A DNA stretch of 64,000 nucleotides from Alloalcanivorax mobilis (GTDB lineage: Bacteria; Pseudomonadota; Gammaproteobacteria; Pseudomonadales; Alcanivoracaceae). Of the stretch, positions 13,415-41,612 are shown in pieces. How positions within the stretch are numbered: the stretch's first letter is position 1; each line of letters starts with the position of its first letter. Made by a program: the position numbers and the translations under genes. The stretch is from contig NZ_NMQZ01000026.1 in NCBI RefSeq assembly GCF_002864685.1, positions 1 to 64,000 of the forward strand, written 5' to 3'. The notes below the pieces were generated by a model that did no database searches, was not told the DNA's origin, and saw only the letters and a program-made list of their open reading frames with translations.

Positions 13415-13512
13415 AGGGTTACCTTTGCTTGAATGGAAATAATGACCAATGCATTTGGGCGTCATCGCGACATGGCGGGAAGCAGGCTTATTTCCTGGCC
13501 GTTGCCTGGAGG

Positions 13513-13609
13513 CCACACCCCGTTGTGTCGCCCTTCGGGTGCCGCGACTCGGCGACACAACAAACTCGGCTGACACAACAAGGGGGGAGGCCCTCCAAAG
13601 CGGCACCAG
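13513..13609 (+). repeat. dispersed intergenic repeat, family R2, copy 3 (deleted)
   Basis: A shortened copy of the 7102-7345 repeat. It keeps the outer blocks (CCGTTGTGTCGCCCTTCGGG and CTCGGCGACACAACA) and the tail AAGGGGGGAGGCCCTCCAAA, but the central hairpin and flanks are missing. It lies in the 668-bp gap 13415-14082. Confidence 0.65.
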
Positions 13610-13631
13610 GCGCACATAGCGCCGCCCTCTC

Positions 13632-13841: not shown

Positions 13842-13857
13842 TCGTCGGATGCGACGA
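13842..13857. promoter_or_regulatory. 16-bp palindromic operator candidate, site 4
   Basis: TCGTCGGATGCGACGA, 226 nt upstream of the MalT-like regulator start (14083) and 428 nt from the SDR start. Downstream on the plus strand at 23 nt is TCACAC, a weak -10 like those at other sites. A site in front of the regulator gene would fit autoregulation. Confidence 0.6.
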
Positions 13858-17133: not shown

Positions 17134-18582
17134 ATGTTCCGACGCACCAAAATCGTTGCCACCGTCGGCCCGGCGAGCGCCGGGCCGGAACGCCTTGCCG
17201 CGCTGATCGAGGCGGGCGTCAATGTGTTCCGGCTGAATTTCTCCCATGGCAGCGCCGACGATCATCGCGCGGTGGCGGAGGACATCCGCCGTTGCGCCAG
17301 CGAGCAGGGCCGCATTGTCGCCGTGCTCGGCGACCTTCAGGGGCCGAAGATCCGCATTGCCCGTTTTCGCGATGGCCCGGTGACCCTGGACAACGGCGCC
17401 GCCTTCACCCTGGACACGGCCCTGGATGTGGACGCCGGCGACCGCCACCGGGTGGGCGTGGACTACCCGGCCCTGGCCGGCGAATGCGCCGCCGGCGACA
17501 CCCTGCTGCTCAACGACGGCCTGATCGAATTGCAGGTGGAATCGGTGCGCGGCAGCCAGGTGAATTGCCGGGTGATCAGCGGTGGCGAGCTGAGCAACCA
17601 CAAGGGCATCAATCGCAAGGGCGGCGGCCTCAACGCCGAGACTCTGACCGACAAGGACCGCCGCGACATCGTGCTGGCGGTGAGCCTGGAGGTGGATTAT
17701 CTGGCGCTGTCGTTTCCCCGCCACGCCGACGACATTCACCAGGCACGGGCGCTGTACCGGCAGGCCGGCGGCCAGGGCGGGCTGGTGGCGAAAATCGAAC
17801 GCGCCGAGGCGGTCGCCGACCCGGACACCCTGGATCAACTGATCCTCGCCGCCGACGGCGTGATGGTGGCGCGCGGCGATCTGGCGGTGGAAATCGGCGA
17901 CGCCGAACTGGTCGGCGTGCAGAAACACATTATCCGCCGGGCACGGGCGCTGGACCGCTTCGTGATCACCGCCACTCAGATGATGGAATCAATGATCCAC
18001 AGCCCACAGCCGACCCGGGCGGAGGTGTCCGACGTCGCCAACGCGGTGCTCGATGGCACCGACGCGGTGATGTTGTCGGCGGAAACGGCGGTGGGCGAGT
18101 ACCCGCTGGCCACGGTCAACGCCATGGCGCGCATCATTCTCGGCGCCGAGCGCACCTATCAGAGCCGCCTGCCGGAACCGGTGGCCGAGCCGGGCATAAC
18201 CCGCAGCGACGAAGGCATTGCCCGGGCCGCCATGTACCTGGCCAATCACCTTGAAGGCGTGCAGGCGATCCTCGCCATGACCGACACCGGCACCACGCCC
18301 CGCTTGATGTCGCGCATCCGCTCGGGCATGCCGATCTTCGCCCTCACCCCGCACGCCGCCACCCGCCGCCGGGTGGCGATCTACCGGGGCGTGCAACCGC
18401 TCGCCTTCGACAGCGCCGGCCTCGCCCCGGAACAGGCCAACCAGGCCGCCGTGGCGCAACTGCTGCAACGCGACCTGGTCCACCCCGGCGCCCGCCTGAT
18501 CCTCACCAAAGGCGACGCCGTGAATCAGCATGGGGGAACGAATACGTTGAAGGTGATTACGGTGGGTGACGCTGGACGCTAG
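17134..18582 (+). CDS. pyk: pyruvate kinase
   Basis: A 482-aa pyruvate kinase (phosphoenolpyruvate + ADP to pyruvate + ATP), complete and of family length. It shows RTKIVATVGPAS at the N-terminus, NVFRLNFSHG, the metal/substrate region GVMVARGDLAVEIG, and the signature TQMMESMIHSPQPTRAEVSD followed by DGTDAVMLSAETAVGEYP. It has no glycolytic neighbours and is flanked on both sides by heptamer repeats. Its last codons and the TAG stop are contributed by the first heptamers of copy E2 (GACGCTGGACGCTAG), so the repeat has set the C-terminus (VGDAGR). A weak AAGGA lies upstream of the ATG. Confidence 0.96.
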   Translation: MFRRTKIVATVGPASAGPERLAALIEAGVNVFRLNFSHGSADDHRAVAEDIRRCASEQGRIVAVLGDLQGPKIRIARFRDGPVTLDNGAAFTLDTALDVDAGDRHRVGVDYPALAGECAAGDTLLLNDGLIELQVESVRGSQVNCRVISGGELSNHKGINRKGGGLNAETLTDKDRRDIVLAVSLEVDYLALSFPRHADDIHQARALYRQAGGQGGLVAKIERAEAVADPDTLDQLILAADGVMVARGDLAVEIGDAELVGVQKHIIRRARALDRFVITATQMMESMIHSPQPTRAEVSDVANAVLDGTDAVMLSAETAVGEYPLATVNAMARIILGAERTYQSRLPEPVAEPGITRSDEGIARAAMYLANHLEGVQAILAMTDTGTTPRLMSRIRSGMPIFALTPHAATRRRVAIYRGVQPLAFDSAGLAPEQANQAAVAQLLQRDLVHPGARLILTKGDAVNQHGGTNTLKVITVGDAGR

Positions 18583-18926: not shown

Positions 18927-19175
18927 GCCGGACGCCGGACGCCGGCCGCTAAGATCAAAACCCGCTGCTGAGAGCATTGCGGCTACGCTTACGGGGTTTG
19001 CTTTTCCGCAGCCGCACCAGTCATGGGTGAGGCTGGACGATTAACCCGCCTGGTGTTTCCCAGCAAACATCGCAGAAAACACCCCGATCCTTTCAGAGCC
19101 AGGGTTAAGCGTCCGGCGTCCGGCGTCTAGCGTCAGGCGTCAGGCGTCAGGCGTCAGGCGTCCAGCGTCAGCCGT
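18927..19175. repeat. composite heptamer repeat, copy E3
   Basis: A short left array (GGACGCC units), a core nearly identical to E2 and a long right array of GTCCGGC, GTCTAGC and GTCAGGC units. The right array overlaps the end of the enoyl-CoA hydratase gene: its TGA stop (19168-19170) lies within the repeat. The segment before it (18877-18926) is shared, inverted, with 30070-30118. Confidence 0.8.
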
Positions 19176-19989
19176 CCAAAAACCGCGCCACCCGCTTCTC
19201 CAAATTCGCATACACCGCCTCAACCTGATTGGGGCTGCCGATGATGGCGTCCTGTTCGCGGGATTCGGCCAGCAGGACGTCGGCGGCTTGGGCGGGTGGC
19301 ATGGCCGAGCGGGTCAGCAGGCGTTTCATGGCGCGCACCGCGTGCGGGTTGCGGCCGGCGATCTGTTCGGCGAGCGCCAGGGCGTCAGCGCGCGGGTCGT
19401 CGCAAATCCGGGTGACCAGGCCCAGTTGCTGGGCTTCGGCGCCGTCGAACACACGGCCGCTGTAGCACAGTTCGCGCACCTGGTCGGCGCGCGCCAGTTC
19501 GTTGAGCAGCACCATGCCGGCCATGTCCGGCACCAGCCCCCATTTGATCTCCATCACCGACCAGCGCGAATCCGCCCGCGCCAGCCGCAGGTCGGCGCCC
19601 AACGCCACCTGCAGGCCACCACCAAAAGCAACGCCGTGCACGGCGGCGATCACTGGCACCGGAATGTCCCGCCACACCATGGCGGCGTACTGGGGCTGGT
19701 TGCTGTCGCCGTGGGTGCGCGGTTCCAGCCGCGAACCCCCGCCGACCCCGGCGCCACCGCCTTCGGCCATGGCGGAGAAGTTGCCCATGTCCAGCCCGGC
19801 GCAGAAGCTCGGCCCTTCACCGCTGAGCACCACGGCGCGCAGGCCGGGCTCCGCCGCCAAGCGCTCGCCGATGCCGGCCAGGGCCTGGAACATCTCCGCG
19901 TCCAGCGCGTTGTGCTTGTCCGGCCGGTTGAGGCGCACCTCGCGCACCCCCGGCACACCGGTATCGATCACCCGCAGGCGTTCGCTCAT
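19168..19989 (-). CDS. enoyl-CoA hydratase/isomerase family protein (crotonase fold)
   Basis: A 273-aa crotonase-fold protein. It has an early LNRPDKHNALDAEMF, the oxyanion-hole segment SFCAGLDMGNF and the second oxyanion-hole segment HGVAFGGGLQVALGADLRLA. At the hydratase Glu position it has IKWGLVPDMAG, so substrate and reaction (hydratase, isomerase or lyase) are open. It lies 78 nt downstream of the CoA-transferase gene on the same strand and probably ends that transcription unit. Its 3' end is eroded or defined by a heptamer array that provides the stop. Confidence 0.87.
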   Translation of the reverse strand: MSERLRVIDTGVPGVREVRLNRPDKHNALDAEMFQALAGIGERLAAEPGLRAVVLSGEGPSFCAGLDMGNFSAMAEGGGAGVGGGSRLEPRTHGDSNQPQYAAMVWRDIPVPVIAAVHGVAFGGGLQVALGADLRLARADSRWSVMEIKWGLVPDMAGMVLLNELARADQVRELCYSGRVFDGAEAQQLGLVTRICDDPRADALALAEQIAGRNPHAVRAMKRLLTRSAMPPAQAADVLLAESREQDAIIGSPNQVEAVYANLEKRVARFLDG

Positions 19990-20067: not shown

Positions 20068-21228
<1,161 letters not shown>

Positions 21229-21292
21229 ACCCTGAGCCTCCTGCGAACGGATTGATGGACGTTCAGGGTAAGCGCACGCCGCCGCGCGTGCA

Positions 21293-21308
21293 TCGTCGAA
21301 AACGACGA
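21293..21308. promoter_or_regulatory. 16-bp palindromic operator candidate, site 5
   Basis: TCGTCGAAAACGACGA, with perfect arms. It is 65 nt upstream of the CaiB-type gene start (21228). TACCCT on the minus strand (21265-21270) is 22 nt downstream. Confidence 0.65.
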
Positions 21309-21317
21309 AGCAGCTTA

Positions 21318-21472
21318 GCGTCGGACGTCGGACGTCGGACGTCGGACGTCGGACGCCAACATAACACCCCATCGCCAAAGGTATTGCGGCTACGCAACGC
21401 GTCTTTGTATCCGCTCAAACCGTTCCGCTTGGGGGTTAAGCGTCAGACGTCAGACGTCGGACGCCAGACGTT
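21318..21472. repeat. composite heptamer repeat, copy E4 (diverged)
   Basis: GGACGTC units run on the left and GTCAGAC/GTCGGAC units on the right, around a core that shares ATTGCGGCTACGC and GGGTTAAGC with E2/E3. It fills the gap between the CaiB-type gene and the thioesterase gene, directly behind operator site 5. Confidence 0.75.
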
Positions 21473-21473
21473 C

Positions 21474-22346
21474 CTAAACCGAAATGTCCGCCATTTTGGC
21501 GCGCATCGTGTCGGTGACCGGGGTGGGCCGATGACTGGCCTGGTCCATCAGCACCATTATGCTTTCCGAGGTGGCGACCAGGTCGTCGTCCATCAACACG
21601 CCACCGCGCAGAACGAAAGAGGTGTTGCCGATGCCGGCCACGCCGGAAGCCAGGGTGATGTCACCGAAGCCCTTGTCCCAGCGGTGATAACGCAGGTCGA
21701 TGCGCGCCACCAGCAGGCTCAGGCCGGGCATGCGGATCACGTCCATGGAACCGGCCCGGGCCTGTTCCGTGTAACGCGCCACCGACAGCTCACCCAGGCA
21801 ACGGTCCGGATCGAGATCGGCGTAGCGCATGGTCAGTGGCGAGCGGCTCGGGTAATCGTGAATGCGCGCCGAATACTCCTCGCTGCCGGATGGCGGCCAG
21901 TCGGCCACAACGACCTCGGCGCCAAGCCGGCCGGTGAGCGCCTCGCGTACCGACGCCGGTAACGCCACCCACGCCTCGTCGCCCCAGGCGCCCATCAGGC
22001 ACTCCTGCACGCCCACGCACTGGCCATCTTGGAACAGGCCCAGGGCGAGCCGGAAACGGTCTTCCTCCACCGCCACCACGCGGGCCGCGCAGAGCACATC
22101 GCGCCCGTAGTGAGTCTCGCCGGTAAACTGGGTGACGGTGCGCCGGGGGCGCAGCAGCAGGTGATCGGAAAACCAGCTGTCATTGCCCAGAACCGCCATC
22201 AGAAAACGCACCCGCACCTCGCTGTGCAGGCTTTGCACCGCCACATTGTTGACGTGGCGTTCGGTGTCCAGATGGCTGTACATCGGCGACAGAGTAATGC
22301 TGAAATCGTAATGGGAGGGGTCCAACTGCCAGGGCTGTGCTTTCAC
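21474..22346 (-). CDS. acyl-CoA thioesterase, double hotdog fold
   Basis: A 290-aa protein with two 4HBT-like hotdog halves. The first carries LSPMYSHLDTERHVNNVAVQ and the second MRYADLDPDRCLGELSVARY, each with the D-x-x-x-H/N-type turn typical of thioesterases. It would hydrolyse acyl-CoA to free CoA, perhaps as overflow control of the CoA pool in this island. I choose the GTG start at 22346 because GGAG lies 7 nt before it; upstream extension would run into the dctQ gene. It follows dctQ by 41 nt. The very 3' end abuts heptamer repeat E4. Confidence 0.82.
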   Translation of the reverse strand: MKAQPWQLDPSHYDFSITLSPMYSHLDTERHVNNVAVQSLHSEVRVRFLMAVLGNDSWFSDHLLLRPRRTVTQFTGETHYGRDVLCAARVVAVEEDRFRLALGLFQDGQCVGVQECLMGAWGDEAWVALPASVREALTGRLGAEVVVADWPPSGSEEYSARIHDYPSRSPLTMRYADLDPDRCLGELSVARYTEQARAGSMDVIRMPGLSLLVARIDLRYHRWDKGFGDITLASGVAGIGNTSFVLRGGVLMDDDLVATSESIMVLMDQASHRPTPVTDTMRAKMADISV

Positions 22347-22387
22347 CGAAACACTCCAACCGGAAAAGTAGGCGCATGAGAATCCAA

Positions 22388-22912
22388 TCAGCGCCCGGAC
22401 GCAAGCCCGGTCTTGCCCGATTCTCCACCACGCAGCGCCTTCCAGAGCAGGCGGAACATCTCCAGAAGCATCAGCCCGAACGCCAGCGGCATCATCAGCA
22501 TCACCGGCCAGACCGGCCACAACCGGGTGCCAATCTGCATTTCCCGGGCGCTTAACGTGGCCTCCCAGGCGAACCGGGCCAGGTACCAGAACAGGATCAT
22601 AAACACCGCGATCTCCACGATCAGCACCAGCGCGGTGAGCGCCCGTGACAGCGCCGCCGGCAGCCGCTCGGTGAGCACATCGAAGCGCGGGAAGCTGCCC
22701 TGACGGTGCCCCAGGGGCACCGCCCAGAACACCAGCAACGGGAAGGCGATGCGTTCGATCATGTTATAGCCGCCGGGAATCAGATCCATGCCCAGCACAT
22801 AACGGCCGAACACGCCGATCACGGTAATCATCATGATCAGAAACAGGCACAGCCCGGCTCCCACCGAAGCCAGCCCCCCTTCCAGACGATCTATCCAGCG
22901 CCAGAATGTCAT
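22388..22912 (-). CDS. TRAP transporter small permease (DctQ family), second system
   Basis: A 174-aa membrane protein with four hydrophobic segments in the DctQ pattern (FGRYVLGMDLIPGGYNMIER, then VPLGHRQGSFPRFDVLTERL). It would form the small subunit of a secondary transporter for an organic acid. Gene order on the minus strand is DctP (24308), DctM (22938), DctQ and then the thioesterase, with gaps of 59, 25 and 41 nt, so they are likely one operon. Confidence 0.88.
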   Translation of the reverse strand: MTFWRWIDRLEGGLASVGAGLCLFLIMMITVIGVFGRYVLGMDLIPGGYNMIERIAFPLLVFWAVPLGHRQGSFPRFDVLTERLPAALSRALTALVLIVEIAVFMILFWYLARFAWEATLSAREMQIGTRLWPVWPVMLMMPLAFGLMLLEMFRLLWKALRGGESGKTGLASGR

Positions 22913-22937: not shown

Positions 22938-24248
22938 CTACTGAATGCGCGCCGGCAACCAGGTCACCAGCGCCGGGTAGAAAATCAACAGCGAGGTCAC
23001 CACCACGCCGGCCGCCAACGCGAACATGGAAGCGGCGCGGAACACCGGCGCCGCCGGATAATTCACCGCGCTGGCGGCGGCGAACGAGGCCAGCCCCACC
23101 GGCGGGGTGAGCAGCCCCAGCGCGATCATCATCGACGCCGACACGCCGAACCACAGCAGGTCGATGCCGGCCGCTTGCAACAACGGCAGAATGATCGGCA
23201 CCAGCAGTACGATCACCGCGGCGGATTCCAAAAACATGCCGCCGACAAAAAACACCGCCAGCAGAATCGCCGCCACCAGACGCGGGCTGTCCAGCGTCGG
23301 CTGCATCAACGACAGCAGTTCGTTGGGCAATTGCGAAAACGAAAGAAAGCGGGCGAAGATCTTCGCCCCCAGCACCAGCATCATCAGGGTGGCGGTGATC
23401 TTCACCGATTCCGACAGCGCCAGAAACAGATCCCGCGCGCCCACCCGCCGCATCAGCAGCATGCCGACGATGGCGGCGAAGGCACCGAGGGCGCCGGCCT
23501 CGGCGACCGTGACAATGCCGCCATAACTGCCGCCGAACACCACCACCATCAACCCGAGCACGAAGGCAAACGCCGAACCGCTGCGCCGGGTTTCATCCGG
23601 GGCCGGCGGCTGATCCGGCGAGACGCCGTCCTCAACGCCGGGGCGCACCTCGCCAAACAGCCGCAAACAAATCATGTACACCAGCACGCACAGCACGCCC
23701 GGGCCGATGGCGCCAATGAACAAATGGCCAATGGGCACCGTGGTCAGCGAGCCATAGATGATCATGATCAGGCTGGGCGGGATGATCGCCGACAACGAGC
23801 CGGCCACCGCCGACAGGCTCAGCGAGAAGCGGCGCGTGTAACCGAGGCGCTCCAGCTCCGGCGACGCCAGCGAGGCCAGCGACGCGGCACTGGCGGCGCC
23901 GGAGCCGGACACCGCGCCAAGCAGGGAACCGGTGACGATGGTGGCGACACCGAGGGGAAAGCGCCGATAACCGGAGAGCCGATGGCCAACCTGGAACAGA
24001 TCCTTGATCACGCCGCCGCGCAACAGCATTTGCGCCATCAATAAATACAGCGGCACGATCGACAGCGAATAGATCGAGGCGGTGTAGAAGGTGTCCGGGC
24101 CGAGCAGCCCGCCCAGCACGTCGATGCCGACCATCAACACAATACCGAGCATGCCGGCGCCGAACAGCACGGTGGCCACGTTCTGGCCAAGCACCAGGAA
24201 GACCGCGAACCAGGCCAGCACGATCCAGATAATCAACGTATTCGACAT
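22938..24248 (-). CDS. TRAP transporter large permease (DctM family), second system
   Basis: A 436-aa polytopic membrane protein of DctM type, with motifs SGSGAASAASLASLASPELERLG and SLSAIIPPSLIMIIYGSLTT. I use the ATG at 24248; a GTG four codons upstream has no better ribosome-binding site. It pairs with the DctQ 25 nt downstream and the DctP 59 nt upstream. This is the second complete TRAP system in the window. It differs from region I in gene order and in receptor sequence, so the two probably take different acids. Confidence 0.92.
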   Translation of the reverse strand: MSNTLIIWIVLAWFAVFLVLGQNVATVLFGAGMLGIVLMVGIDVLGGLLGPDTFYTASIYSLSIVPLYLLMAQMLLRGGVIKDLFQVGHRLSGYRRFPLGVATIVTGSLLGAVSGSGAASAASLASLASPELERLGYTRRFSLSLSAVAGSLSAIIPPSLIMIIYGSLTTVPIGHLFIGAIGPGVLCVLVYMICLRLFGEVRPGVEDGVSPDQPPAPDETRRSGSAFAFVLGLMVVVFGGSYGGIVTVAEAGALGAFAAIVGMLLMRRVGARDLFLALSESVKITATLMMLVLGAKIFARFLSFSQLPNELLSLMQPTLDSPRLVAAILLAVFFVGGMFLESAAVIVLLVPIILPLLQAAGIDLLWFGVSASMMIALGLLTPPVGLASFAAASAVNYPAAPVFRAASMFALAAGVVVTSLLIFYPALVTWLPARIQ

Positions 24249-24307
24249 GGCGATCACCACAGCCGGGGCGAAGCGAATCGCGCCACCGCACGCGGCGGCG
24301 CGGGCGG

Positions 24308-25393
24308 TCAGTCCAGTTTCAGATAGCGGGCCGCGCCATCGGGAATCTCACCCCCCTGCTCGCGGATCAGGCGCGCCCACTGGGTGGCCGCCGCGCGGCC
24401 CGGGTGGCCGGCTTTTTCCATTTGCTCAATCCAGCGCACCCAGGTGCGGCTGGCCGCCTCGCCGAGGCGGGCCCGCATCGGCTCGGGCAAATCGGCCAGT
24501 TCCACGAAGGTGGCGCCTTTGGCGGCGGTGTCCTTACGCACCTGAATTTCCAGCTGATCAATGTAGGCGGCGTTGTCCATGGCGGTCTTTTTGGCCACCT
24601 CGTTCCAGGTGCGCCGCTGGTCATCGGTAAAACCGTTCCAGGTTTTTTCGGTGACCGCCAGATAGCTTTCCCAATGCCCCATGGAAAGCCCGGTGATGGT
24701 GTATTTGAGCAACTCCTGGAACGAGTAAGAAGGCCAGTCCGCCACTGAGAGAATGGTGCCTTCCACGGTTTTGCGCGACAGCGCCTCGTAGGAATCGGCG
24801 CTGGTCATGGTCACCGGCGTGGCCCCCAGCTCTTGAAGCAAAATGGTGTGCAGCGTCGAGCCGGCACGCATCGGCAACCCTTTCAGGTCGTCCGGATCAT
24901 CCAGCACCTTGCCGGTGGTGGACAACGAATACGCCGCCGTCGCCCCCACCGCCCAACCGCGCAGGCCCTTGTCGCCCAGTTCATACTGATAGAACGTTTT
25001 GCCGTCCACCAGTGTCTGGTCCGACGCCATCAAGGCCATCAGCGCGCGGGTCTCCTTGACCGAGTTGGTATTGAGGGTCGGCAGCTGGGTCACGTCGGAA
25101 AGCGGAAACTGGCCCTCATGATAGGGCGCCAGCAACGGCGCCGCCACCGAGACGATGCCGGATTTCAGCGCGCCCAGCTCGCGGCCGGGGGTCACCAGGG
25201 ACCCGGAATAAAAGGGCGTAAAGGTGAGATCGGATTGAGCCTGCATGCTCTTGATGAACGGGTCCATGAACTGGCCCACCCAGAAATGCTGCTGGCCCAT
25301 GCCGGCGGAGATTCTGAGATTCTCGGCGTGCGCGCCGAGGCTGAATACCACGGTGAACAGAACCAACAGGACCCGTAACGAACGCTGACGCAT
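24308..25393 (-). CDS. TRAP transporter substrate-binding protein (DctP family), second system
   Basis: A 361-aa periplasmic receptor. The N-terminus is a signal peptide (MRQRSLRVLLVLFTVVFSLG, cleavage near AHA-EN). The DctP core includes the arginine-bearing stretch DLKGLPMRAGSTLHT and TSADSYEALSRKTVEG. The frame is open further upstream, but the ATG at 25393 has AGGAG at a good distance and places the signal peptide at the N-terminus. It lies 83 nt downstream of the acyl-CoA ligase gene 25477-27081 and so may feed the substrate of that ligase. Confidence 0.92.
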   Translation of the reverse strand: MRQRSLRVLLVLFTVVFSLGAHAENLRISAGMGQQHFWVGQFMDPFIKSMQAQSDLTFTPFYSGSLVTPGRELGALKSGIVSVAAPLLAPYHEGQFPLSDVTQLPTLNTNSVKETRALMALMASDQTLVDGKTFYQYELGDKGLRGWAVGATAAYSLSTTGKVLDDPDDLKGLPMRAGSTLHTILLQELGATPVTMTSADSYEALSRKTVEGTILSVADWPSYSFQELLKYTITGLSMGHWESYLAVTEKTWNGFTDDQRRTWNEVAKKTAMDNAAYIDQLEIQVRKDTAAKGATFVELADLPEPMRARLGEAASRTWVRWIEQMEKAGHPGRAAATQWARLIREQGGEIPDGAARYLKLD

Positions 25394-25476: not shown

Positions 25477-27081
25477 TCAACCGGCGCTAAGGCGCTGTCG
25501 CAGTTGCGCCTTGATCACCTTGCCGTTGGCGTTGCGGGGCAACGGCTCGCTTTGCAGGGTGATGTAATCGGGAATCTTGTAATCCGCCAGATGCTCGGCG
25601 CAGAACCGCTTGATGGCGTCGTCTTGCACCGCCGGGCTTTGTTCGCCGTGGCTGATGAAAATGTGGATTTTCTCGCCCAGCACCGGGTCCGGTTGCGCCA
25701 CCGCCGCGCACTCCACCACGCCCGGATGCCGCACGATCAGGTTCTCCAGCTCCACACTGTAGATGTTGTAGCCGCCACGATTGATCATGTCTTTCTTGCG
25801 ATCGTGCACGCGCACGTAACCGTGCTGGTCTTTTGAACCGATGTCGCCGGAGCGCCAGTGTCCGGCGACGAACTCGCGCTGGTTGGCCTCGGCGTTGTTC
25901 CAGTAACCCGGCACCACCATGGGCCCGCTGATCCACAACTCACCGGCCTCACCGGCCGGCACTTCACGGCCTTGATCGTCCATCACTCTTACTTCGCCGC
26001 AGGTCACCACGGTACCGACGCTGTCCGGGCAGTGGGCGGCGTCGCCCGGCGGCAGCACCGTGGTGGGCGAGGTGGTTTCGGTGGCGCCGTAGGCGTTGAT
26101 CAGCTGCAGCGCGGGCAATTGTTCGTGCAACCGGGCGATGGTCACTTCCGGCATCGGCGCGCCGCCAAAGCCGCCGATCCGCCAGGCGGACAAATCGTGT
26201 TCGCTGAAATCCGCGCGCAGCAGGCACAGGTTGTACATGGCCGGCACCATGGAGGTGTGCGTAATGCGCTCGCGCGCCGCCAGCGCCACGAAGGCGGCGG
26301 CGTCAAACTGGCGCACCAGCACCACGCAACCGGCCACATGCATCATCGTCAGGATCACCGCCGCCACCCCGGTGACATGGCTGGCCGGCACCACCAACAA
26401 CGAACGCTCACCATCGACCAGCGACATGCGCTGCTGGTAGTGCATCAGAGTGTGAATCAGGTTGAGGTGGGTCAGCATCACACCCTTCGGGCGACCGGTG
26501 GTGCCCGAGGTGTAGAGAATGATGGCGGTGTCTTCTTCGTTGAGAGCCGGCTCGGGGGCCGCCTTTCCGGGGTCCGCCAACAGCGCCTGGAAAGGCTCCC
26601 CGTCACCGGCGTCGCCACCAACTATAAAACGGTGCGCCAACGCCGGCAGCTGCTCGGGGCCGGCGATCTTGGCGATTTGATCGGCATCGCAGATCACCGC
26701 GCGGGCTTCACAGTGGCCGAGGATGTAACCAATGCCGTCGCGCTGTTCACGCACATTGACCGGCACCGCGATGGCGCCCAGGCGCGCAATCGCCAATAAC
26801 GACAGCACAAAGGGCGCGTCGTTGCCGAGCAGCAACGCCACCCGGTCGCCGGCTTCGACGCCCCGTTGCGCCAGTTGCGCGGCGATGCGCTCGGCGGCGT
26901 CAGCGGCCTGGCGATAACTGTAGCGGCCGCCGTCGGCGACGATGCAATCGTTTTGTGGCGCGCGGCCCAGCGCCCGCCGGAAGGAGTCGAGCACGCTGCC
27001 CGGCCGATGCGCGAAACAACGAACCAGGCGATCGCCGAAATGTTGTTCGTAGCGAGTGGCGAAATGATCTCGGCCAGACAT
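25477..27081 (-). CDS. AMP-forming acyl-CoA ligase (LvaE-like position)
   Basis: A 534-aa ANL-superfamily ligase. Motifs: AIILYTSGTTGRPKGVMLTH (P-loop), INAYGATETTSPTT, HGYVRVHDRKKDMINRGGYN (hinge) and the catalytic Lys in NANGKVIKAQL. GGGAG precedes the ATG. It follows the acyl-CoA dehydrogenase 27202-28473, in the order kinase, DUF6285, ACAD, ligase, as in lva clusters where LvaE activates levulinate or other 4-oxo/4-hydroxy acids. A 16-bp palindrome 82 nt upstream suggests a separate promoter for the ligase and the TRAP genes below it. The actual substrate is not known. Confidence 0.9.
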   Translation of the reverse strand: MSGRDHFATRYEQHFGDRLVRCFAHRPGSVLDSFRRALGRAPQNDCIVADGGRYSYRQAADAAERIAAQLAQRGVEAGDRVALLLGNDAPFVLSLLAIARLGAIAVPVNVREQRDGIGYILGHCEARAVICDADQIAKIAGPEQLPALAHRFIVGGDAGDGEPFQALLADPGKAAPEPALNEEDTAIILYTSGTTGRPKGVMLTHLNLIHTLMHYQQRMSLVDGERSLLVVPASHVTGVAAVILTMMHVAGCVVLVRQFDAAAFVALAARERITHTSMVPAMYNLCLLRADFSEHDLSAWRIGGFGGAPMPEVTIARLHEQLPALQLINAYGATETTSPTTVLPPGDAAHCPDSVGTVVTCGEVRVMDDQGREVPAGEAGELWISGPMVVPGYWNNAEANQREFVAGHWRSGDIGSKDQHGYVRVHDRKKDMINRGGYNIYSVELENLIVRHPGVVECAAVAQPDPVLGEKIHIFISHGEQSPAVQDDAIKRFCAEHLADYKIPDYITLQSEPLPRNANGKVIKAQLRQRLSAG

Positions 27082-27162
27082 GCCGGGCTCTCCCTGCTGC
27101 GGGCCACCCTGCGGCCCGGTGAATGCATGCTTCAGGTGTAATCGATGAGCGCCGCCATGACC

Positions 27163-27178
27163 TCGTCCGAAGCGACGA
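27163..27178. promoter_or_regulatory. 16-bp palindromic operator candidate, site 6
   Basis: TCGTCCGAAGCGACGA, identical to site 3. It lies between the ligase start (27081) and the ACAD stop (27202). TACACC (27135-27140, minus strand) is 22 nt downstream. Confidence 0.65.
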
Positions 27179-27201
27179 TATTGGTACCGCCGTGACCGGG
27201 G

Positions 27202-28473
27202 TCAACGCTTGCCCAGATAACCGAACAGATGGCCGGCCACCTTACGCATCTGAATTTCTTCGCTGCCTTCGGTAATGCGATAGCGGCGATGGTGACGATA
27301 GATGTGCTCGAACGGCTTATGCCGGGAATAGCCGATGCCGCCGTGCACCTGCATGGCACGGTCGGCCGCTTCGCAGCACAGGCGATTGGCCCGGTAATTA
27401 CACATGGACACCTTGTCGGAAAGCTGTTTTTCGATTTCCGGCTTGGGCAACTGATCCATTTCCCAAGCGGTTTTGCGGATCAACAAACGCAACATCTCCG
27501 CTTCGCTGTGCAGTTCCACCAGCGGGAATTGAATCGCCTGATTTTTTGCCAGCGCCTCGCCAAACGGTTTGCGCTGGCGGGCGTATTGGACGCTTTCATT
27601 AATGCAGTAACTGGCGGCGCCAAGGCTGGAGGCGGCCTGGCGGATGCGGTTTTCGTGCACGAAATGCTGAGCCAGGGCCAGCCCGCCATCGCGCGGGCCG
27701 AAGATGGCGCTGTCGGGCAGCCACACGTCACGCAAGCTCAGGCGTGGGTGATCGGTGGGCATGTTGAAGGTCCACAGATACTCCTCGATGGTCAGCCCGT
27801 CGATCGGCGAAGGCATCAGGAAGGCGGTGATTCCTTTGGCGTCGCCGTCGTCGCCGGCGGTGCGCGCGAACAGCACACAATGGGTGGCGGTATGCATGCC
27901 GGTGATCCACATTTTTTCGCCGTTGATCAACCAGCCGTCCACGCCGTCACGGCGTGACGGCACCGCGCGGGTTTCCATGTGCGTGGCGTCGGAGCCGTGG
28001 TTCGGTTCGGTCAGGCCAAAGGCGATCTTGTGGGTTTCAGCGAGCATGCCATTGACGAACTCTTCGCTTTGCGCGGCGCTGCCGAAGTCGCGAAACATCA
28101 ACACAAACGGATTGTTGGCGACAATCGAGTGCTCGTTTTGAAGATCGTTGTGCAAGCCCAGCCCGCGCGCCGCCAGGTGCTCACGGATCACGGTCATGGC
28201 GAGGTGCGAACCGTCCTGGCCGCCGTAGGTTTTGGGCAGCGGGAAACGCAAATGCCCGGCTTCATCGGCCAGTTGGCGCGCCTCGGCGAGCAGCGCTTCC
28301 CACTCCGGCCGTGGCAGGCCACCGTTTTCGAAATCGGTGCGCGCCCATTCGCGGCGGTGGTCAAAAAAACGGATGTTATCGTCGCGCTGCTCAAGCGGCT
28401 TGATGCGCGCCTCGATGAAGTCGTCCAGTTGATCCAGGTAAGCGGTCAGTTCCGCCGGCAGGTTAAAGTCCAT
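27202..28473 (-). CDS. acyl-CoA dehydrogenase, ACAD11/LvaC-like
   Basis: A 423-aa acyl-CoA dehydrogenase. It has AFGLTEPNHGSDATHMET, NGEKMWITGMHTATH, ARQRKPFG and QVHGGIGYSRHKPFEHIYRH. The base motif TEGSEEIQ (E402) is present, unlike in the paired ACADs of regions I and VI. The N-terminal blocks (RFFDHRREWARTDFENGGLP, GLGLHNDLQNEHSIV) are typical of the ACAD10/11 and LvaC group. LvaC acts on 4-phosphoacyl-CoA made by the LvaA/LvaB kinase. It lies 13 nt downstream of the DUF6285 gene, which itself follows the kinase by 6 nt, so the three are one operon. Confidence 0.9.
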   Translation of the reverse strand: MDFNLPAELTAYLDQLDDFIEARIKPLEQRDDNIRFFDHRREWARTDFENGGLPRPEWEALLAEARQLADEAGHLRFPLPKTYGGQDGSHLAMTVIREHLAARGLGLHNDLQNEHSIVANNPFVLMFRDFGSAAQSEEFVNGMLAETHKIAFGLTEPNHGSDATHMETRAVPSRRDGVDGWLINGEKMWITGMHTATHCVLFARTAGDDGDAKGITAFLMPSPIDGLTIEEYLWTFNMPTDHPRLSLRDVWLPDSAIFGPRDGGLALAQHFVHENRIRQAASSLGAASYCINESVQYARQRKPFGEALAKNQAIQFPLVELHSEAEMLRLLIRKTAWEMDQLPKPEIEKQLSDKVSMCNYRANRLCCEAADRAMQVHGGIGYSRHKPFEHIYRHHRRYRITEGSEEIQMRKVAGHLFGYLGKR

Positions 28474-28486
28474 GGGTGAGTCCTTG

Positions 28487-28870
28487 TCAGCGGTCGCCGA
28501 GGCGCTGCAGCGCCTGCTGATACGCGGCGTACCGGGGCTGATCCACCGCCACCTTATTGAGCGTGACGAACCAGAGAAAATCTTTCAGGCCGGGCGTGCT
28601 CAGGCTCACCTCGCCGGCGGCGATGCGTTGGCAAAGCGCGCTGGTCAGCGTGGCAACGTCGCCGCGCTCTCCGGTGAGCCGCTCAAGTTGCTGTTGCTCC
28701 TGGCGGGCCAGCTCCGCCGGCTGCCGCCACTGGCGGCAGGCCATGTCAATGACGTTGGCGGCGACCCGGGTTTGAAACGCCAGGCTGCCCTCCAGCGTGG
28801 GCACCAATTCACGGCGCAGGAATTCCGCCACCACGGCGAGCATGTCAGTGCTGTCCGGCAGGTCATGCAT
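28487..28870 (-). CDS. DUF6285 small protein, LvaB-like kinase partner
   Basis: A 127-aa, mainly alpha-helical protein with no signal peptide. It has the DUF6285 look: LVPTLEGSLAFQTRVAANVI near residue 25, then an ELARQEQQQLERLTG stretch. In the Pseudomonas putida levulinate operon a small protein of this kind (LvaB) is required with the kinase LvaA to phosphorylate 4-hydroxyacyl-CoA. Here it sits directly between an APH-type kinase (6 nt) and an ACAD (13 nt), the same order, which supports the same role. The assignment rests on context and remembered family features. Confidence 0.78.
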   Translation of the reverse strand: MHDLPDSTDMLAVVAEFLRRELVPTLEGSLAFQTRVAANVIDMACRQWRQPAELARQEQQQLERLTGERGDVATLTSALCQRIAAGEVSLSTPGLKDFLWFVTLNKVAVDQPRYAAYQQALQRLGDR

Positions 28871-28876
28871 GGGGGT

Positions 28877-29872
28877 CTACTCCTTCGGCGCCAGCAGGTT
28901 AAGAAGATCCAGTTCGGTTTCCGAGGCGCGCCGGCCAATCGCGCCACGCTCGACCGTGCGGTCCGCACCGCTGATGAACGAGCGCGCCATCTTCTGGCAG
29001 ATCACGCCCCAGCGCAGGGTGCCCAACAGCTCCCAGAAGGCCACCCGTCGCCGGCAAACACGCTGGCCGCTGGCCTCCTGATAGCCGGCGTAAAGCTGTT
29101 CGCGGCTGCCGAAGCCGCCCACCGGCAACTGGCTCCCGAAGCGCCAGGAGTTGACGCAGATCCAGCCCAGGTCCGCCATCGGATCACCCACATAGGCCAG
29201 CTCCCAATCGAGCACCGCGCGCAGACCGGTGCGATCGATCATCAGGTTGCCGTTGCGGAAATCGCCGTGCACCAGCGCCGGTTCCGGCTCGTGGGCCGGC
29301 AGGTTGTCGTGCAGCCAGCGCAACGCCAGTTCAAACACCGGGCGCGGCTCGCCGTAGCCACGGTATTCCTCGGCCAGCTCCGCCAGCGCCCGGGCCGCGT
29401 TCAAACGGCGTAAAAAAGGTGCGTCATCGAAGGGCACCTGATGGATGCCGGCCATCACCCGCCCGCACTGGCGGGCCAGCACCTCGCGGGCGCCGGCATA
29501 GGTGTCGTCACGGAGAATGCGCTGCGGCAGGGTTTCGCCTTCCACCCTTTGCATCAGATAGCCGATGCCAAGCCCATCGCCGTGTTCCAGCACATGGCGA
29601 ACCCGCGGCACCGGCACGTCGTGCCGCTCCACCAGCTGCAGCAATCGGGCTTCCTGATCCAGCGGCAGCGAGCCACGCTCCTGGCCGTTCCAGGGGCCGG
29701 CGAGACGCAGGATCAAAGGCTCGATGCGCTCGCCCTGCACCAGGTCCAGGGACCACATATGCTGGCTGGCGCCGCCGGTCAGTTTCACCAGCCGTTGCAC
29801 CGCAGCGCCCGGCAACAGACGCGGCGCCAGACTCTGCAACGCGTCCATCACCACTTTGCCGTCGCGTTCCAT
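28877..29872 (-). CDS. APH-family phosphotransferase, LvaA / ACAD10-11 kinase-domain-like
   Basis: A 331-aa protein kinase-like-fold phosphotransferase. It has the catalytic loop LVHGDFRNGNLMID (200-213) and the metal-binding DWELAYVGDP (222-231), plus an N-terminal nucleotide-binding lobe with GGASQHMW. Family members next to ACAD genes are not antibiotic kinases. LvaA and the N-terminal domains of mammalian ACAD10/ACAD11 phosphorylate the 4-hydroxyl of hydroxyacyl-CoA so that an ACAD partner can remove it. It heads the operon kinase-DUF6285-ACAD. A 16-bp palindrome lies 69 nt upstream with TAGACT 23 nt below it. The ribosome-binding site (GGAG, 12 nt) is rather distant. Confidence 0.85.
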   Translation of the reverse strand: MERDGKVVMDALQSLAPRLLPGAAVQRLVKLTGGASQHMWSLDLVQGERIEPLILRLAGPWNGQERGSLPLDQEARLLQLVERHDVPVPRVRHVLEHGDGLGIGYLMQRVEGETLPQRILRDDTYAGAREVLARQCGRVMAGIHQVPFDDAPFLRRLNAARALAELAEEYRGYGEPRPVFELALRWLHDNLPAHEPEPALVHGDFRNGNLMIDRTGLRAVLDWELAYVGDPMADLGWICVNSWRFGSQLPVGGFGSREQLYAGYQEASGQRVCRRRVAFWELLGTLRWGVICQKMARSFISGADRTVERGAIGRRASETELDLLNLLAPKE

Positions 29873-29940: not shown

Positions 29941-29956
29941 TCGTCGCATCGGACGA
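29941..29956. promoter_or_regulatory. 16-bp palindromic operator candidate, site 7
   Basis: TCGTCGCATCGGACGA, 69 nt upstream of the APH-type kinase start (29872). TAGACT (29912-29917, minus strand) is 23 nt downstream and is the best -10-like hexamer in the gap. Confidence 0.68.
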
Positions 29957-29975: not shown

Positions 29976-30159
29976 GTAGGAGAGGCCGGGCGGCGCCCCG
30001 CCCCGCCAGCGACGGGGTTGATTTTGATTTTCGCGTTGAACGTCTGACGTCGGACGTCGGACGTCGGACGCAAAAACCATAAGGTGCGGGGCAACCGCGC
30101 AGTGCCATCCGGCCAAAACACGTCGCTGGCACGGCGGAACGCCGCCCAGCCTCTCCTAC
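29976..30159. repeat. inverted GTAGGAGAGGC repeats around a heptamer array, copy E5
   Basis: Two inverted copies of the GTAGGAGAGGC...CCAGCGACG element (29976-30014 and 30121-30159) flank a short GGACGTC heptamer array (about 30037-30070) and a module at 30070-30118 that matches, inverted, 18877-18926. The whole resembles one end of composite repeat E3 turned around. It occupies the start of the 913-bp gene-free gap 29873-30785. Confidence 0.75.
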
Positions 30160-30785: not shown

Positions 30786-31559
30786 CTATTTTTTCTTGGC
30801 GGCTTTCTCTTTGAAGGCGGCGATGGCGGTTTTCGATTCTTCGCTGTCCATGCACAGCTGCTGGGCAATGGCTTCCTGCTCGACGGTTTCGGCGAAACGG
30901 TTGTTGGCGGCGGCGCGCAGCAGCTTCTTGGCTTCGGCGTTGGCCAGCGCGGAACGCTGGGCGAGCTCGGCGGCCCAGCTGGCGGCGGCGGCGTCCAGCT
31001 CCGTTACTGGCAGCACTTTATTGGCGATGCCGATTTGCAGGCATTGCTCGGCGCTCAGGCTGCCGCCCTCGACGATCAGCTGAAACGCGCGCTGATAGCC
31101 CAGGTGCTGATAGAGCAGCCAGGTGGCGCCACCATCGGGGACCAGGCCGATGTGGCTGAAGGCCATGTAGATGCGCGCCTCGTCGGCCATCATCACCAGG
31201 TCACAGTTCATCAACAAGGCCGCGCCGACGCCGGCGGCGACGCCCGGCGCCACGCCGATCACCGGCAACGGCGAACGGGCGATCTTCTCCAATAACGGCC
31301 GGTAACCCTGCAGCAGCTCATCCACCACGCTGTGGTTTTCGGATTTCGGCTCGGTGAGATCGGCGCCGGCGGAAAAGCCCCGCCCGGTGGAGCCGAACAC
31401 AATCACCTTGATCGCCGGGTCCCGTTCGGCCCGGTCAAAGGCGTCGATCAGCGCCCGGCGCAACCCGGGCGTAAAGGCGTTGAGCACTTGGGGGCGATTC
31501 ATGCGCAACGTCGCCACCGCGCCGTCCACCCGATACTCAACCAGTTGTTCTTCACTCAT
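30786..31559 (-). CDS. enoyl-CoA hydratase/isomerase family protein
   Basis: A 257-aa crotonase-fold protein: RMNRPQVLNAFTPGLRRALI, GRGFSAGADLTEP (first oxyanion segment), GVAAGVGAALLMNCDLVMMA and FSHIGLVPDGGATWLLY. Asp rather than Glu is seen in the last block, so isomerase or other activities are as likely as hydration. The true start is the ATG at 31559 with AAGGAG upstream. It is divergent from the SDR at 31768, and the 208-bp gap between them holds two 16-bp palindromes. It ends in a Lys-rich tail (EKAAKKK). Confidence 0.88.
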   Translation of the reverse strand: MSEEQLVEYRVDGAVATLRMNRPQVLNAFTPGLRRALIDAFDRAERDPAIKVIVFGSTGRGFSAGADLTEPKSENHSVVDELLQGYRPLLEKIARSPLPVIGVAPGVAAGVGAALLMNCDLVMMADEARIYMAFSHIGLVPDGGATWLLYQHLGYQRAFQLIVEGGSLSAEQCLQIGIANKVLPVTELDAAAASWAAELAQRSALANAEAKKLLRAAANNRFAETVEQEAIAQQLCMDSEESKTAIAAFKEKAAKKK

Positions 31560-31645
31560 TGCGTTCTCCTTAATGTCTGCCCAAAAGCCGGGCTCGCCGA
31601 TGCGGTGCCAAACCCCCATTATTCGAGCCTTGCGCGCCGCTGGCG

Positions 31646-31661
31646 TCGTCCAATGCGACGA
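31646..31661. promoter_or_regulatory. 16-bp palindromic operator candidate, site 8
   Basis: TCGTCCAATGCGACGA, 87 nt upstream of the enoyl-CoA hydratase start (31559). AATAAT on the minus strand (31618-31623) is 22 nt downstream. Confidence 0.68.
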
Positions 31662-31687
31662 ATCCGCCGACGCGAACGCCCGCCTTT

Positions 31688-31703
31688 TCGTCGCAACCGA
31701 CGA
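31688..31703. promoter_or_regulatory. 16-bp palindromic operator candidate, site 9
   Basis: TCGTCGCAACCGACGA, 65 nt upstream of the SDR start (31768). AATCAT on the plus strand (31727-31732) is 23 nt downstream. The start is 42 bp from that of site 8, about four helical turns, so both lie on the same DNA face. Confidence 0.66.
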
Positions 31704-31767
31704 TTGTCCCACGACGAGCTCTGGCCAATCATGACAGCCTTGATCACTGCGACAGGAGCACGGCGCC

Positions 31768-32571
31768 ATGACGGAGACCCGGGTACGTACGGTACAACAA
31801 CTGTTCGATCTTAGCGGCAAGACCGCTTTGATCACCGGCGGCTCCCGTGGCCTGGGCCTGCAAATGGCCGAGGCCCTCGGCGAGGCCGGCGCCCGGCTGG
31901 TGATCACCGCGCGCAAGGAAGGCGAGCTGCAGCAGGCTTGCGCGCATTTGCGCGAGGCCGGCATTCAGGTAACGCCGATGGTCACCGATCTGGCCCGCGA
32001 AGAGGAAGTGTTGAGCCTGGCGGAGCGCGCGCTGGAAACCCTCGGCCAGGTGGATATTCTGGTCAATAACGCCGGCGCCACCTGGGGTGGCGCGGCGGAA
32101 GATTACCCGCTGGAAGGCTGGGACAAAGTGATGACGCTGAACCTGCGCCATCTTTTTCTGCTGACCCGGGAGATCGGCCGGCGCAGCATGATCCCGCGCC
32201 GCTACGGGCGGGTGGTCAACATCGCCTCCAATGCGGCCCTGGGCGGCAACCGGGAATTCATGCAGGCGGTGGGCTACAACACCAGCAAAGGGGCGGTGGT
32301 GACCTTCACCCGGGCACTGGCCGCTGAATGGGGTGCTTACAATATTACCGTCAATGCCATCGGCCCCGGGGTGTTCCCCAGCAAGATGTCCCGCTATCTT
32401 ACCGAACGGCATGGCGTCGACGACCTCGCCGCGCGCGTGCCACTGAACCAGGTCGGCGACGAAGAAGGCCTGAAAGGCGCCGTATTATTGTTCGCATCCG
32501 ATGCGGGCAAGCACACCACCGGCCAGTTCCTGCTGGTGGACGGCGGCGCCTCGGCCATGATCGCCGGCTGA
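31768..32571 (+). CDS. SDR-family oxidoreductase
   Basis: A 267-aa classical short-chain dehydrogenase/reductase. It has TGGSRGLG (23-30), NNAGATWGG, NIASNAALGG and the active-site pair in GYNTSKGAV, then NAIGPGVFPS and a C-terminal LLVDGGASAMIAG. It resembles RhlG/FabG-type ketoreductases acting on 3-ketoacyl or related substrates. If regulated with the lva-like operon it could supply an LvaD-like keto reduction, which that operon lacks; this is speculative. It is the first gene of a plus-strand run followed by an enoyl-CoA hydratase 139 nt away. Confidence 0.88.
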   Translation: MTETRVRTVQQLFDLSGKTALITGGSRGLGLQMAEALGEAGARLVITARKEGELQQACAHLREAGIQVTPMVTDLAREEEVLSLAERALETLGQVDILVNNAGATWGGAAEDYPLEGWDKVMTLNLRHLFLLTREIGRRSMIPRRYGRVVNIASNAALGGNREFMQAVGYNTSKGAVVTFTRALAAEWGAYNITVNAIGPGVFPSKMSRYLTERHGVDDLAARVPLNQVGDEEGLKGAVLLFASDAGKHTTGQFLLVDGGASAMIAG

Positions 32572-32710
32572 TTGTCGCGGCACTGATTGCCATTGATCAC
32601 GCCAATCATCGCGCCAACCATTGAAATTCGCGACCGGGCACCGTTTGCCCGGCCGCCCGCCACGGGGCCACGGCCCTGCCTTTATCCAGTTGCATCACTC
32701 GGGAGCCATC

Positions 32711-33586
32711 ATGCAAATCCCCAGCTTTCAAACCCTGGAACTCCAGGTCGAGGACGGCATCGCCACCCTCTTTCTGAATCGTCCTGACCGGATGAACGCT
32801 TTTACCCGTGAAATGAAAGACGAGCTGATCGCCGCGTTCGATTTCACCGACGCCAGCGATGAAGTGCGCGCCGTGATCGTCACCGGCAAGGGCCGCGCCT
32901 TCTGCGCCGGCGCCGACTTGTCTTCCGGCGGCGACACCTTTGATTACAAGAAGCGCGGCGGCGAAGGCGCCAACCCGGACGACGCCCACCGCGATGGCGG
33001 CGGCCAGGTGTCACTGCGCATTCACCGCAGCCTCAAGCCGGTGATCGCCGCGGTGAACGGCGCGGCGGTGGGCGTGGGCATCACCATGCAATTGCCGATG
33101 GACGTGCGCATGGCCTCCGAGGACGCCAAGTTCGGCTTCGTCTTTTCCCGCCGTGGCATCGTCAACGAAGCGGCTTCGTCCTGGTTCCTGAGCCGTGTGG
33201 TGGGCATCTCTTCGGCGCTGGAGTGGTGCTTCTCCGGCCGCGTGTTCAGTGCCGCCGAGGCCAAGGAGCGCGGCCTGGTGCGTTCCGTGCACAAAGCCGA
33301 TGAGCTGTACCCGGCGGCGGTGGCGCTGGCCCGTGAGTTCGCCGATCAGACCGCGCCGGTGTCGGTGGCGGTGATCCGCCAAATGATCTGGCGCATGGCC
33401 GGCGCGGAAACGCCGATGCAGGCGCACCAGATGGACAGCCGCGCGATGAAATCCCGTGGCGCCTCCGAAGACGTTAAGGAAGGGGTCACCTCATTCCTGG
33501 AAAAACGCCCGGCGAAGTTCCCGGACCAGGTCTCCAAGGACCTGCCCGACTTCTTCGACTGGCAGAGCGAGCCGCCGTTTAAATAA
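32711..33586 (+). CDS. enoyl-CoA hydratase family protein
   Basis: A 291-aa crotonase-fold protein. It has LNRPDRMNAFTREMKDELIA, GRAFCAGADLSSGG (first oxyanion segment), VNGAAVGVGITMQLPMDVRM and FSRRGIVNEAASSWFLSRVV with Glu in the hydratase position. A C-terminal extension ends SKDLPDFFDWQSEPPFK. The ATG at 32711 begins the conserved fold; the frame is open upstream without homology. It belongs to a set with the SDR upstream and probably hydrates or isomerises an unsaturated acyl-CoA. Confidence 0.9.
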   Translation: MQIPSFQTLELQVEDGIATLFLNRPDRMNAFTREMKDELIAAFDFTDASDEVRAVIVTGKGRAFCAGADLSSGGDTFDYKKRGGEGANPDDAHRDGGGQVSLRIHRSLKPVIAAVNGAAVGVGITMQLPMDVRMASEDAKFGFVFSRRGIVNEAASSWFLSRVVGISSALEWCFSGRVFSAAEAKERGLVRSVHKADELYPAAVALAREFADQTAPVSVAVIRQMIWRMAGAETPMQAHQMDSRAMKSRGASEDVKEGVTSFLEKRPAKFPDQVSKDLPDFFDWQSEPPFK

Positions 33587-41598: not shown

Positions 41599-41612
41599 GG
41601 TCGCTCCCCGGT

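Follow-up and report, generated by a model that had tools for sequence, protein, structure and literature searches.

We analysed a 64,000-nucleotide stretch of the Alloalcanivorax mobilis genome (positions 1 to 64,000 of contig NZ_NMQZ01000026.1, hereafter the window), and in particular a minus-strand operon of four genes encoding, in this order, a kinase of the aminoglycoside phosphotransferase (APH) fold, a DUF6285 protein, an acyl-CoA dehydrogenase (ACAD) and an AMP-forming acyl-CoA ligase. Comparison with the levulinate (lva) operon of Pseudomonas and with relatives from other genomes points to the kinase, the DUF6285 protein and this ACAD, which carries a glutamate at the position of the catalytic base (Glu-ACAD), as a near-obligate triad that would run parallel to LvaA, LvaB and LvaC without being LvaABC. 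To this reading, taken together with the mechanism proposed below, we assign a probability of about 50%.

The kinase gene (28877-29872, 331 aa; PF01636, 122 bits) is followed after 6 bp by the DUF6285 gene (28487-28870, 127 aa; PF19802, 100.8 bits) and, after another 13 bp, by the gene of the Glu-ACAD (27202-28473, 423 aa; PF00441/PF02770). A gap of 120 bp, which contains a palindrome, separates the latter from the ligase gene (25477-27081, 534 aa; PF00501, 308 bits). The original prediction, in which the four genes had been matched with those for LvaA, LvaB, LvaC and LvaE, described this order and its position correctly. The ligase shares 32% identity with LvaE, and the three other ligases of the window share 27-34%. 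In sister species a hydratase gene sits in the gap between the ACAD and ligase genes; a remnant of such a gene was sought in the 120 bp of the window and rejected, as nothing there matched better than the end of the ACAD gene, read out of frame.

As the reference lva operon we used that of the Pseudomonas aeruginosa plasmid p12939-PER (L054), in which the small gene is annotated as lvaB. The window kinase is 34% identical to LvaA of this operon. Its catalytic loop is intact, as had been predicted: D204, N209 and D222 are present, and each is conserved at more than 93% in both of the sets obtained when kinases were grouped by their best reference (16 LvaA-type and 54 window-type). Altogether 34 positions are conserved at more than 93% in both sets, and only four strongly separate them. 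A tree of 74 rows was calculated by a quick method (the fragmented open reading frame (ORF) L283_k was left out of the tree and of the clan counts). In this tree 70 DUF6285-linked kinases stood apart from four other APHs of the genus, with a support of 99 in the Shimodaira-Hasegawa-like approximate likelihood ratio test (SH-aLRT). Of these, 17 rows fell on the side of LvaA (SH-aLRT 82) and 52 on that of the window kinase (SH-aLRT 92), and one kinase (L262) was placed on neither. The tree places the window kinase in the same DUF6285-linked clade as LvaA but in a sister clan. Because it lies in the clade that contains LvaA, apart from the four other APHs, it can well be read as a kinase of acyl-CoA hydroxyl groups.

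The annotated LvaB of the reference operon also matches PF19802 (85 bits) and, on the basis of this shared match, we assign the DUF6285 protein to the LvaB family, in line with the original prediction. Its predicted structure is all-helical, with six helices (mean local confidence, pLDDT, 84.9; predicted template-modelling score, pTM, 0.55), and a fold search with this model retrieved no solved structure at an E value of 0.001 or better. Fusions of the kinase with DUF6285 were detected in 28 ORFs of the loci searched by profile, two of them of the LvaA type (L276 and L278). A literature search for DUF6285, with subscription literature outside its scope, found no paper. According to the available parts of two reports (PMC6692424, PMC9399607), which refer to Rand et al. 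2017, LvaA and LvaB act together in the phosphorylation of hydroxyacyl-CoA. In a Thermus locus (L052) a histidine phosphatase gene (7318-7971) stands after that of DUF6285, and in P. citronellolis a histidine phosphatase replaces LvaB (available text of PMC6692424); a phosphatase beside this kinase, seen twice, may serve to control side reactions.

The third member of the triad differs from LvaC in its active site. In the accessible part of a study of animal ACAD11 (PMC12440821), D753 is the base and R626, H634 and R637 hold the phosphate in a model, and substitutions of these three residues with Ala or Leu were the most disruptive to the ACAD activity of ACAD10/11. At the four corresponding positions LvaC of the reference operon has R/H/R/D, whereas the window ACAD has F/Q/S/E. 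Among 80 named relatives of the Glu-ACAD the pattern was FQSE in 74, FQGE in four, VQSE in one and FQAE in one, and none showed R/H/R/D. The glutamate at the base position, E402, is invariant in 105 of 105 relatives, together with R276, R278 and Q279. The residues R278, H394, H395 and R397 are found in at least 99% of the 105 relatives but in none of 32 further ACADs encoded in the genome. The Glu-ACAD family also has an insert (residues 33-47) that those 32 proteins almost entirely lack. The solved structures nearest to the Glu-ACAD by sequence are CarC and SCAD. With a score of 91 bits, the window ACAD ranks only 23rd of the 47 matches of LvaC in its own genome. The candidate identification with LvaC was rejected on account of the four diagnostic residues and of this rank, and by the same evidence the protein is best described as not LvaC. 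The observation that the ACAD keeps its Glu, made in the original prediction, was confirmed, but the conclusion drawn from it was not, since LvaC uses Asp; as judged from the alignment, the Glu that is kept corresponds to the base of canonical dehydrogenases and speaks against LvaC chemistry.

The co-inheritance of the three genes was analysed in 398 genomes of the phylum, which were searched for PF19802 and with a Glu-ACAD profile. Both searches scored part of the candidates (up to 12 for PF19802 and up to four for the Glu-ACAD per genome), and the counts are lower bounds. PF19802 was found in at least 39 of the 398 genomes and the Glu-ACAD in at least 30, with one match each; the 30 lie in nine family codes. 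Twenty-nine of the 30 Glu-ACAD genomes contained PF19802, and the 30th (G686) encodes a fused kinase with a divergent DUF6285 directly beside the Glu-ACAD. In all 30 the DUF6285-linked kinase was nearer to that of the window than to LvaA (in one of them, G528, this kinase is L262), and in all ten PF19802 genomes without a Glu-ACAD the kinases matched LvaA best and fell on the LvaA side of the tree. Fisher's test on these counts (29/1/10/358) gave 1.9e-34, a value which, as the genomes are related, is not a probability of independent events. When the kinases in the tree were labelled for a Glu-ACAD partner (at the level of the genome where the genes are unlinked), the label changed three times, compared with 19.6 times in shuffles. 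For 26 chosen genomes with window-closest DUF6285 kinases all candidates were scored, and 25 of these genomes had exactly one Glu-ACAD, which in eleven cases was encoded far from the kinase; the exception is G035.

Similar results were obtained from the 80 named loci, which are the best 80 of at least 584 relatives of the Glu-ACAD, come mostly from Alphaproteobacteria and include one genome twice. The kinase and DUF6285 were present in the locus in 59 cases (profile search, including fused and divergent copies). For the other 21 loci DUF6285 was encoded elsewhere in 20 genomes, in all 20 adjoining or fused to a window-closest kinase. DUF6285 is thus present in the genome for 79 of the 80 loci. 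Chelatococcus reniformis has two Glu-ACAD copies (L111 and L112), each with a kinase and DUF6285. The predicted association of kinase, DUF6285 and ACAD is thus borne out by their joint inheritance across the genomes sampled.

ACADs with the R/H/R/D residues are also found in the genome of the window. We read the four sites in 30 of the 47 LvaC matches and found four ACADs with R/H/R/D. One of them is encoded in the window itself (40357-41616, minus strand), 10.5 kb from the kinase, and is 35% identical to LvaC. Among 51 DUF6285 loci (39 from the phylum sample, eight from a class sample and four from plasmids) 15 had only the Glu-ACAD, 11 only an R/H/R/D ACAD, seven both and 18 neither within the stretch examined. 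The seven with both types are six genomes of one family (f229), whose gene order resembles that of the named Bradyrhizobium loci, and a Sulfitobacter plasmid (L051). Among the 80 named loci, 19 encode an R/H/R/D ACAD; Bradyrhizobium accounts for 16 of these and Marinobacter for one (L106), which likewise has both types.

The gene arrangement, the active-site residues, the kinase clans, the joint inheritance and the conservation of the palindrome are observations; for the mechanism we infer the reactions, their order, the binding of the regulator and the substrate. The ligase would convert an imported hydroxy acid to its CoA thioester, and the kinase, with DUF6285 as a subunit, would phosphorylate a hydroxyl of the hydroxyacyl-CoA. 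The Glu base and the missing phosphate site suggest that the Glu-ACAD carries out plain dehydrogenation linked to flavin adenine dinucleotide (FAD) and that R/H/R/D ACADs eliminate phosphate. The Glu-ACAD would serve the pathway as the dedicated partner of the kinase, oxidising the alpha,beta bond as a redox-active dehydrogenase with Glu402 as base, and the loss of phosphate, if LvaC-like, would be the task of a separate R/H/R/D ACAD, either that at 40357-41616 or one of the three more found in the genome. A palindrome-marked cluster around the operon, with a LuxR/MalT-type regulator, adds importers, ligases, hydratases, a thiolase and reductases. A separate eliminase is supported by the R/H/R/D ACADs of the 19 named loci, of the Sulfitobacter plasmid and of operons that lie behind palindromes elsewhere in the genomes of sister species.

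Several observations weigh against this reading. The 40357-41616 ACAD is a candidate phosphate eliminase whose link to the operon is weak, because its matches in 24 further genomes, among them those of sister species, did not exceed 49%, and because no palindrome at one mismatch or fewer was found near it; by the first of these results it is a candidate and not a fixed partner of the triad. All 25 genomes of the family match it at an E value of 1e-60 or better, a profile of the LvaC type found matches in 26 of 26 genomes tested, and of 30 loci retrieved with this profile 29 showed R/H/R/D and one was cut off. R/H/R/D ACADs are common, and therefore their presence proves little. Among the 26 genomes searched there was no triad genome without an LvaC-type match that could have told elimination by the Glu-ACAD from elimination by a separate enzyme. 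In many triads no further ACAD is linked, and this agrees better with an eliminase function of the Glu-ACAD itself. As to the triad, in one genome that is 81% complete (G035, L063) a window-clan kinase is accompanied by an R/H/R/D ACAD while a Glu-ACAD is lacking, and no DUF6285 was found in 7.3 Mb of a metagenome-assembled genome (MAG) in which the Glu-ACAD lies on a 3.8-kb contig (L142). As to the clans, the kinase of Thermus (L052) is by a small margin a better match to the window kinase, yet the tree groups it with LvaA, and L262 belongs to the window clan by best match, with an ambiguous position in the tree.

In an alternative reading the Glu-ACAD itself removes the phosphate; it would be a second eliminase of phosphoacyl-CoA, with an origin independent of LvaC/ACAD11, and would use a relocated anion-binding Arg, the invariant R278. 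The near-obligate co-inheritance with the kinase and DUF6285 speaks for it, as do the many sphingomonad-type loci that show only a fused kinase-DUF6285 and the Glu-ACAD among the families looked for, and the conservation of R278, H394, H395 and R397, which sets the family apart from the other ACADs of the genome. On a helical wheel of 100 degrees per residue R278 (position 633) falls between positions 626 and 637, on the face of the helix where ACAD11 has R626 and R637. However, all four known phosphate-site residues differ and the base is an ordinary Glu, and the R/H/R/D ACAD present in several clusters would be redundant, and we regard this alternative as possible but rather unlikely. It is less likely still, and in our opinion improbable, that the kinase acts elsewhere than at C4, phosphorylating for instance C3 of a tertiary alcohol or C5, and that the partner ACAD is unlike LvaC for this reason. 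Kinase clans and ACAD types do go together, and the neighbouring genes (a TRAP importer, CaiB and an ACAD-family pair) are unlike those of lva, but so few positions strongly separate the two sets of kinases, and the pairing of a window-clan kinase with an R/H/R/D ACAD in L063 suggests 4-phosphoacyl-CoA.

The original prediction amounted to a plain lva-like operon, in which the ACAD is the equivalent of LvaC and acts on 4-phosphoacyl-CoA by the chemistry of LvaC. The same gene order and the same families speak for it, but the four diagnostic residues and the low rank of the ACAD among the LvaC matches speak against it, as does the lack of this ACAD in all ten LvaA-clan genomes of the sample, and we consider it very improbable. 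Hardly credible is the view that the kinase is an APH acting on drugs or sugars whose gene happens to lie next to those of beta-oxidation: PF01636 also includes aminoglycoside kinases, but the NCBIfam models for these scored far under their cut-offs (at best 43 versus 205 bits), and the kinase is tied to DUF6285 and the ACAD across the phylum.

The palindrome, TCGTCSSAWSSGACGA, is 16 bp long and occurs at eight sites of the window with at most one mismatch, spanning 5425 to 31703. As had been predicted, it stands before the kinase (29941-29956, 69 bp upstream) and before the ligase (27163-27178, 82 bp upstream). Two further copies, 31646-31661 (one mismatch) and 31688-31703, lie in the divergent promoter between genes for an enoyl-CoA hydratase (30786-31964 in its longest reading, minus strand; PF00378), which is upstream of the kinase operon, and a short-chain dehydrogenase (SDR; 31768-32571, plus strand; PF00106). 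The remaining four were found between an SDR gene and the regulator gene (13842-13857), 108 bp before a thiolase gene (12606-12621), upstream of a second set of TRAP genes, within the longest reading of the DctQ ORF (9521-9536), and, with one mismatch, 57 bp before a ligase gene (5425-5440). All zero-mismatch sites of the 4.1-Mb genome are in this contig, and a narrower form of the pattern, with up to three mismatches, was observed 12 times, compared with at most six in any of 100 shuffles. In Marinobacter (L105) the same divergent promoter contains two palindromes, at 5693 and 5734. Of seven members of the genus searched (both strands counted, one mismatch allowed), the four with the cluster have 19-25 matches and the three without it have one or two; the reversed pattern, used as a control, gave 1-5 matches in the former and 6-11 in the latter. 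A chance occurrence was rejected, given that the zero-mismatch sites are confined to the contig and the palindrome is kept in sister species and Marinobacter. A short tandem GACGTCGGACGTCGGACGT repeat is also found upstream of the kinase operon (30040-30075).

Counting the genes downstream of the outer sites, the palindrome cluster covers about 33 kb (288 to 33586) and comprises two tripartite ATP-independent periplasmic (TRAP) importers, four ligases, a thiolase, several hydratases, two SDRs and an ACAD-family pair. Its LuxR/MalT-type protein (14083-16851, plus strand; PF17874, PF00196) has a 1495-bit homologue in a sister cluster (L055), and in Aquisalimonas (L115) the palindrome adjoins a homologue of this regulator; the protein probably reads the palindrome. 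The four cluster-bearing sister species have a perfect palindrome outside the cluster, before an operon of a kinase, an SDR and an R/H/R/D ACAD (L308, 6974-10175), and this position therefore suggests that in these species one regulator controls both the triad and the ACAD11-like pair. No off-cluster palindrome before such an operon was found in the genome of the window. In one genome (G005) three further off-cluster palindromes lie near ligase or TRAP genes (L309, L310 and L312).

Downstream of the operon ligase, and also on the minus strand, are genes for the TRAP proteins DctP (24308-25393; PF03480), DctM (22938-24260; PF06808) and DctQ (22388-22912; PF04290), a 4HBT_2 thioesterase-like ORF (21474-22520 in its longest reading; PF13279, 34 bits), a CoA_transf_3 (CaiB) protein (20068-21378; PF02515, 298 bits) and an enoyl-CoA hydratase/isomerase family protein (19168-19989; PF00378; NF005699 above its cut-off). 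The longest reading of the 4HBT_2 ORF overlaps the DctQ gene, and its true start is therefore probably further inside. The transporter, CaiB and thioesterase announced by the original prediction were all found here. The rest of the cluster on this strand encodes an SDR (12632-13615; PF00106), the thiolase (11317-12498; PF00108/PF02803), three AMP-forming ligases (9593-11230, an acyl-CoA ligase, 5445-7055 and 3815-5368; all PF00501), the second TRAP transporter (DctM 7453-8760, PF06808; DctQ 8753-9547 in its longest reading, PF04290; DctP 2631-3776, PF03480) and the ACAD-family pair (1409-2617 and 288-1742; PF00441/PF02770/PF02771). A second enoyl-CoA hydratase family gene (32621-33586; PF00378) follows the SDR gene 31768-32571 on the plus strand. 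This SDR is 33% identical to LvaD, which is the level of a generic SDR. An LvaD-type SDR was not found inside the operon and no match to LvaR was found within the window, as had been claimed; the claim does not extend to reductases in general, as the palindrome cluster also encodes generic SDRs (at 31768 and at 12632). A pyruvate kinase gene (17134-18582, plus strand) stands amid the catabolic genes.

The TRAP transporters, CaiB, the four ligases and the ACAD pair point to an imported carboxylate whose breakdown needs beta-oxidation as well as stereochemical steps. This description would suit an acid that is 4-hydroxylated, branched or cyclic; the 4-hydroxy or gamma-lactone substrate of the original prediction is possible, but no result shows it.

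In comparison with known systems, the operon shares with lva of Pseudomonas a kinase of the DUF6285-linked clade, DUF6285/LvaB, an ACAD and an AMP-forming ligase, adjacent and co-oriented. It differs in that its kinase belongs to the sister clan of LvaA, its ACAD has F/Q/S/E instead of R/H/R/D, it lacks an internal SDR and a match to LvaR, and it is accompanied by TRAP import, CaiB and a LuxR/MalT-type regulator. With the animal ACAD10 and ACAD11, which are described in the available text of PMC12440821 and PMC11342911 as kinase-ACAD fusions for 4-hydroxyacyl-CoA, it has the logic of a kinase plus an ACAD in common, but neither the Asp base nor the Arg/His/Arg site is present in the window ACAD, and its partners are separate chains that include DUF6285. 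ACAD10 made trans-2-enoyl-CoA without an electron acceptor, according to the part of PMC11342911 at hand. The window ACAD resembles canonical dehydrogenases of the SCAD/MCAD type in having the Glu base at the usual place in the C-terminal domain, and differs from them in the insert 33-47, in R278/H394/H395/R397 and in its kinase-DUF6285 partner. In the literature searched, seen partly in extracts and with subscription literature outside the search, we found no description of a Glu-type kinase-DUF6285-ACAD unit; only the LvaC/ACAD10/11 kind was described.

Beyond the cluster, the R/H/R/D ACAD at 40357-41616 belongs to a second fatty-acid module on the minus strand (40357-44732), with an enoyl-CoA hydratase and two ACAD-family proteins (42400-43509 and 43518-44732), and a comparable group of genes adjoins the kinase in the Sulfitobacter cluster L051. 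The proteins encoded at 46225-47523 and 54480-55823 are related to each other (185 bits). The former contains a metallo-beta-lactamase domain (PF00753) and an alkyl-sulfatase dimerisation domain (PF14863); it is flanked by genes for a porin (44940-46088) and a DUF1254/DUF1214 protein (47591-48895). A large CoA ligase of the ATP-grasp/succinyl-CoA ligase type (48905-51028; PF13549, PF13607) lies near beta-oxidation genes.

4-Hydroxy acids and their lactones are common products of lipids and biomass, and one enzymatic route for them, that of LvaABC and ACAD10/11, is described in the parts of the literature available to us. The unit of kinase, LvaB-family protein and Glu-ACAD is nearly always inherited whole, with the MAG and the incomplete genome mentioned above as the two exceptions. 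As a second unit of this kind it would mean that phosphorylation-assisted beta-oxidation has at least two chemical versions, and the simple sequence test of R/H/R/D versus F/Q/S/E keeps ACADs of the Glu type from being annotated as LvaC. We tentatively propose, as a possibility to be taken seriously although the odds are against it, that there is a second, independently evolved form of phosphorylation-dependent acyl-CoA processing, in which the kinase and DUF6285 would hand phosphoacyl-CoA to a Glu-ACAD that handles the phosphate through R278 and its neighbours. Such a unit would occur widely in Pseudomonadota and would have gone unnoticed until now.

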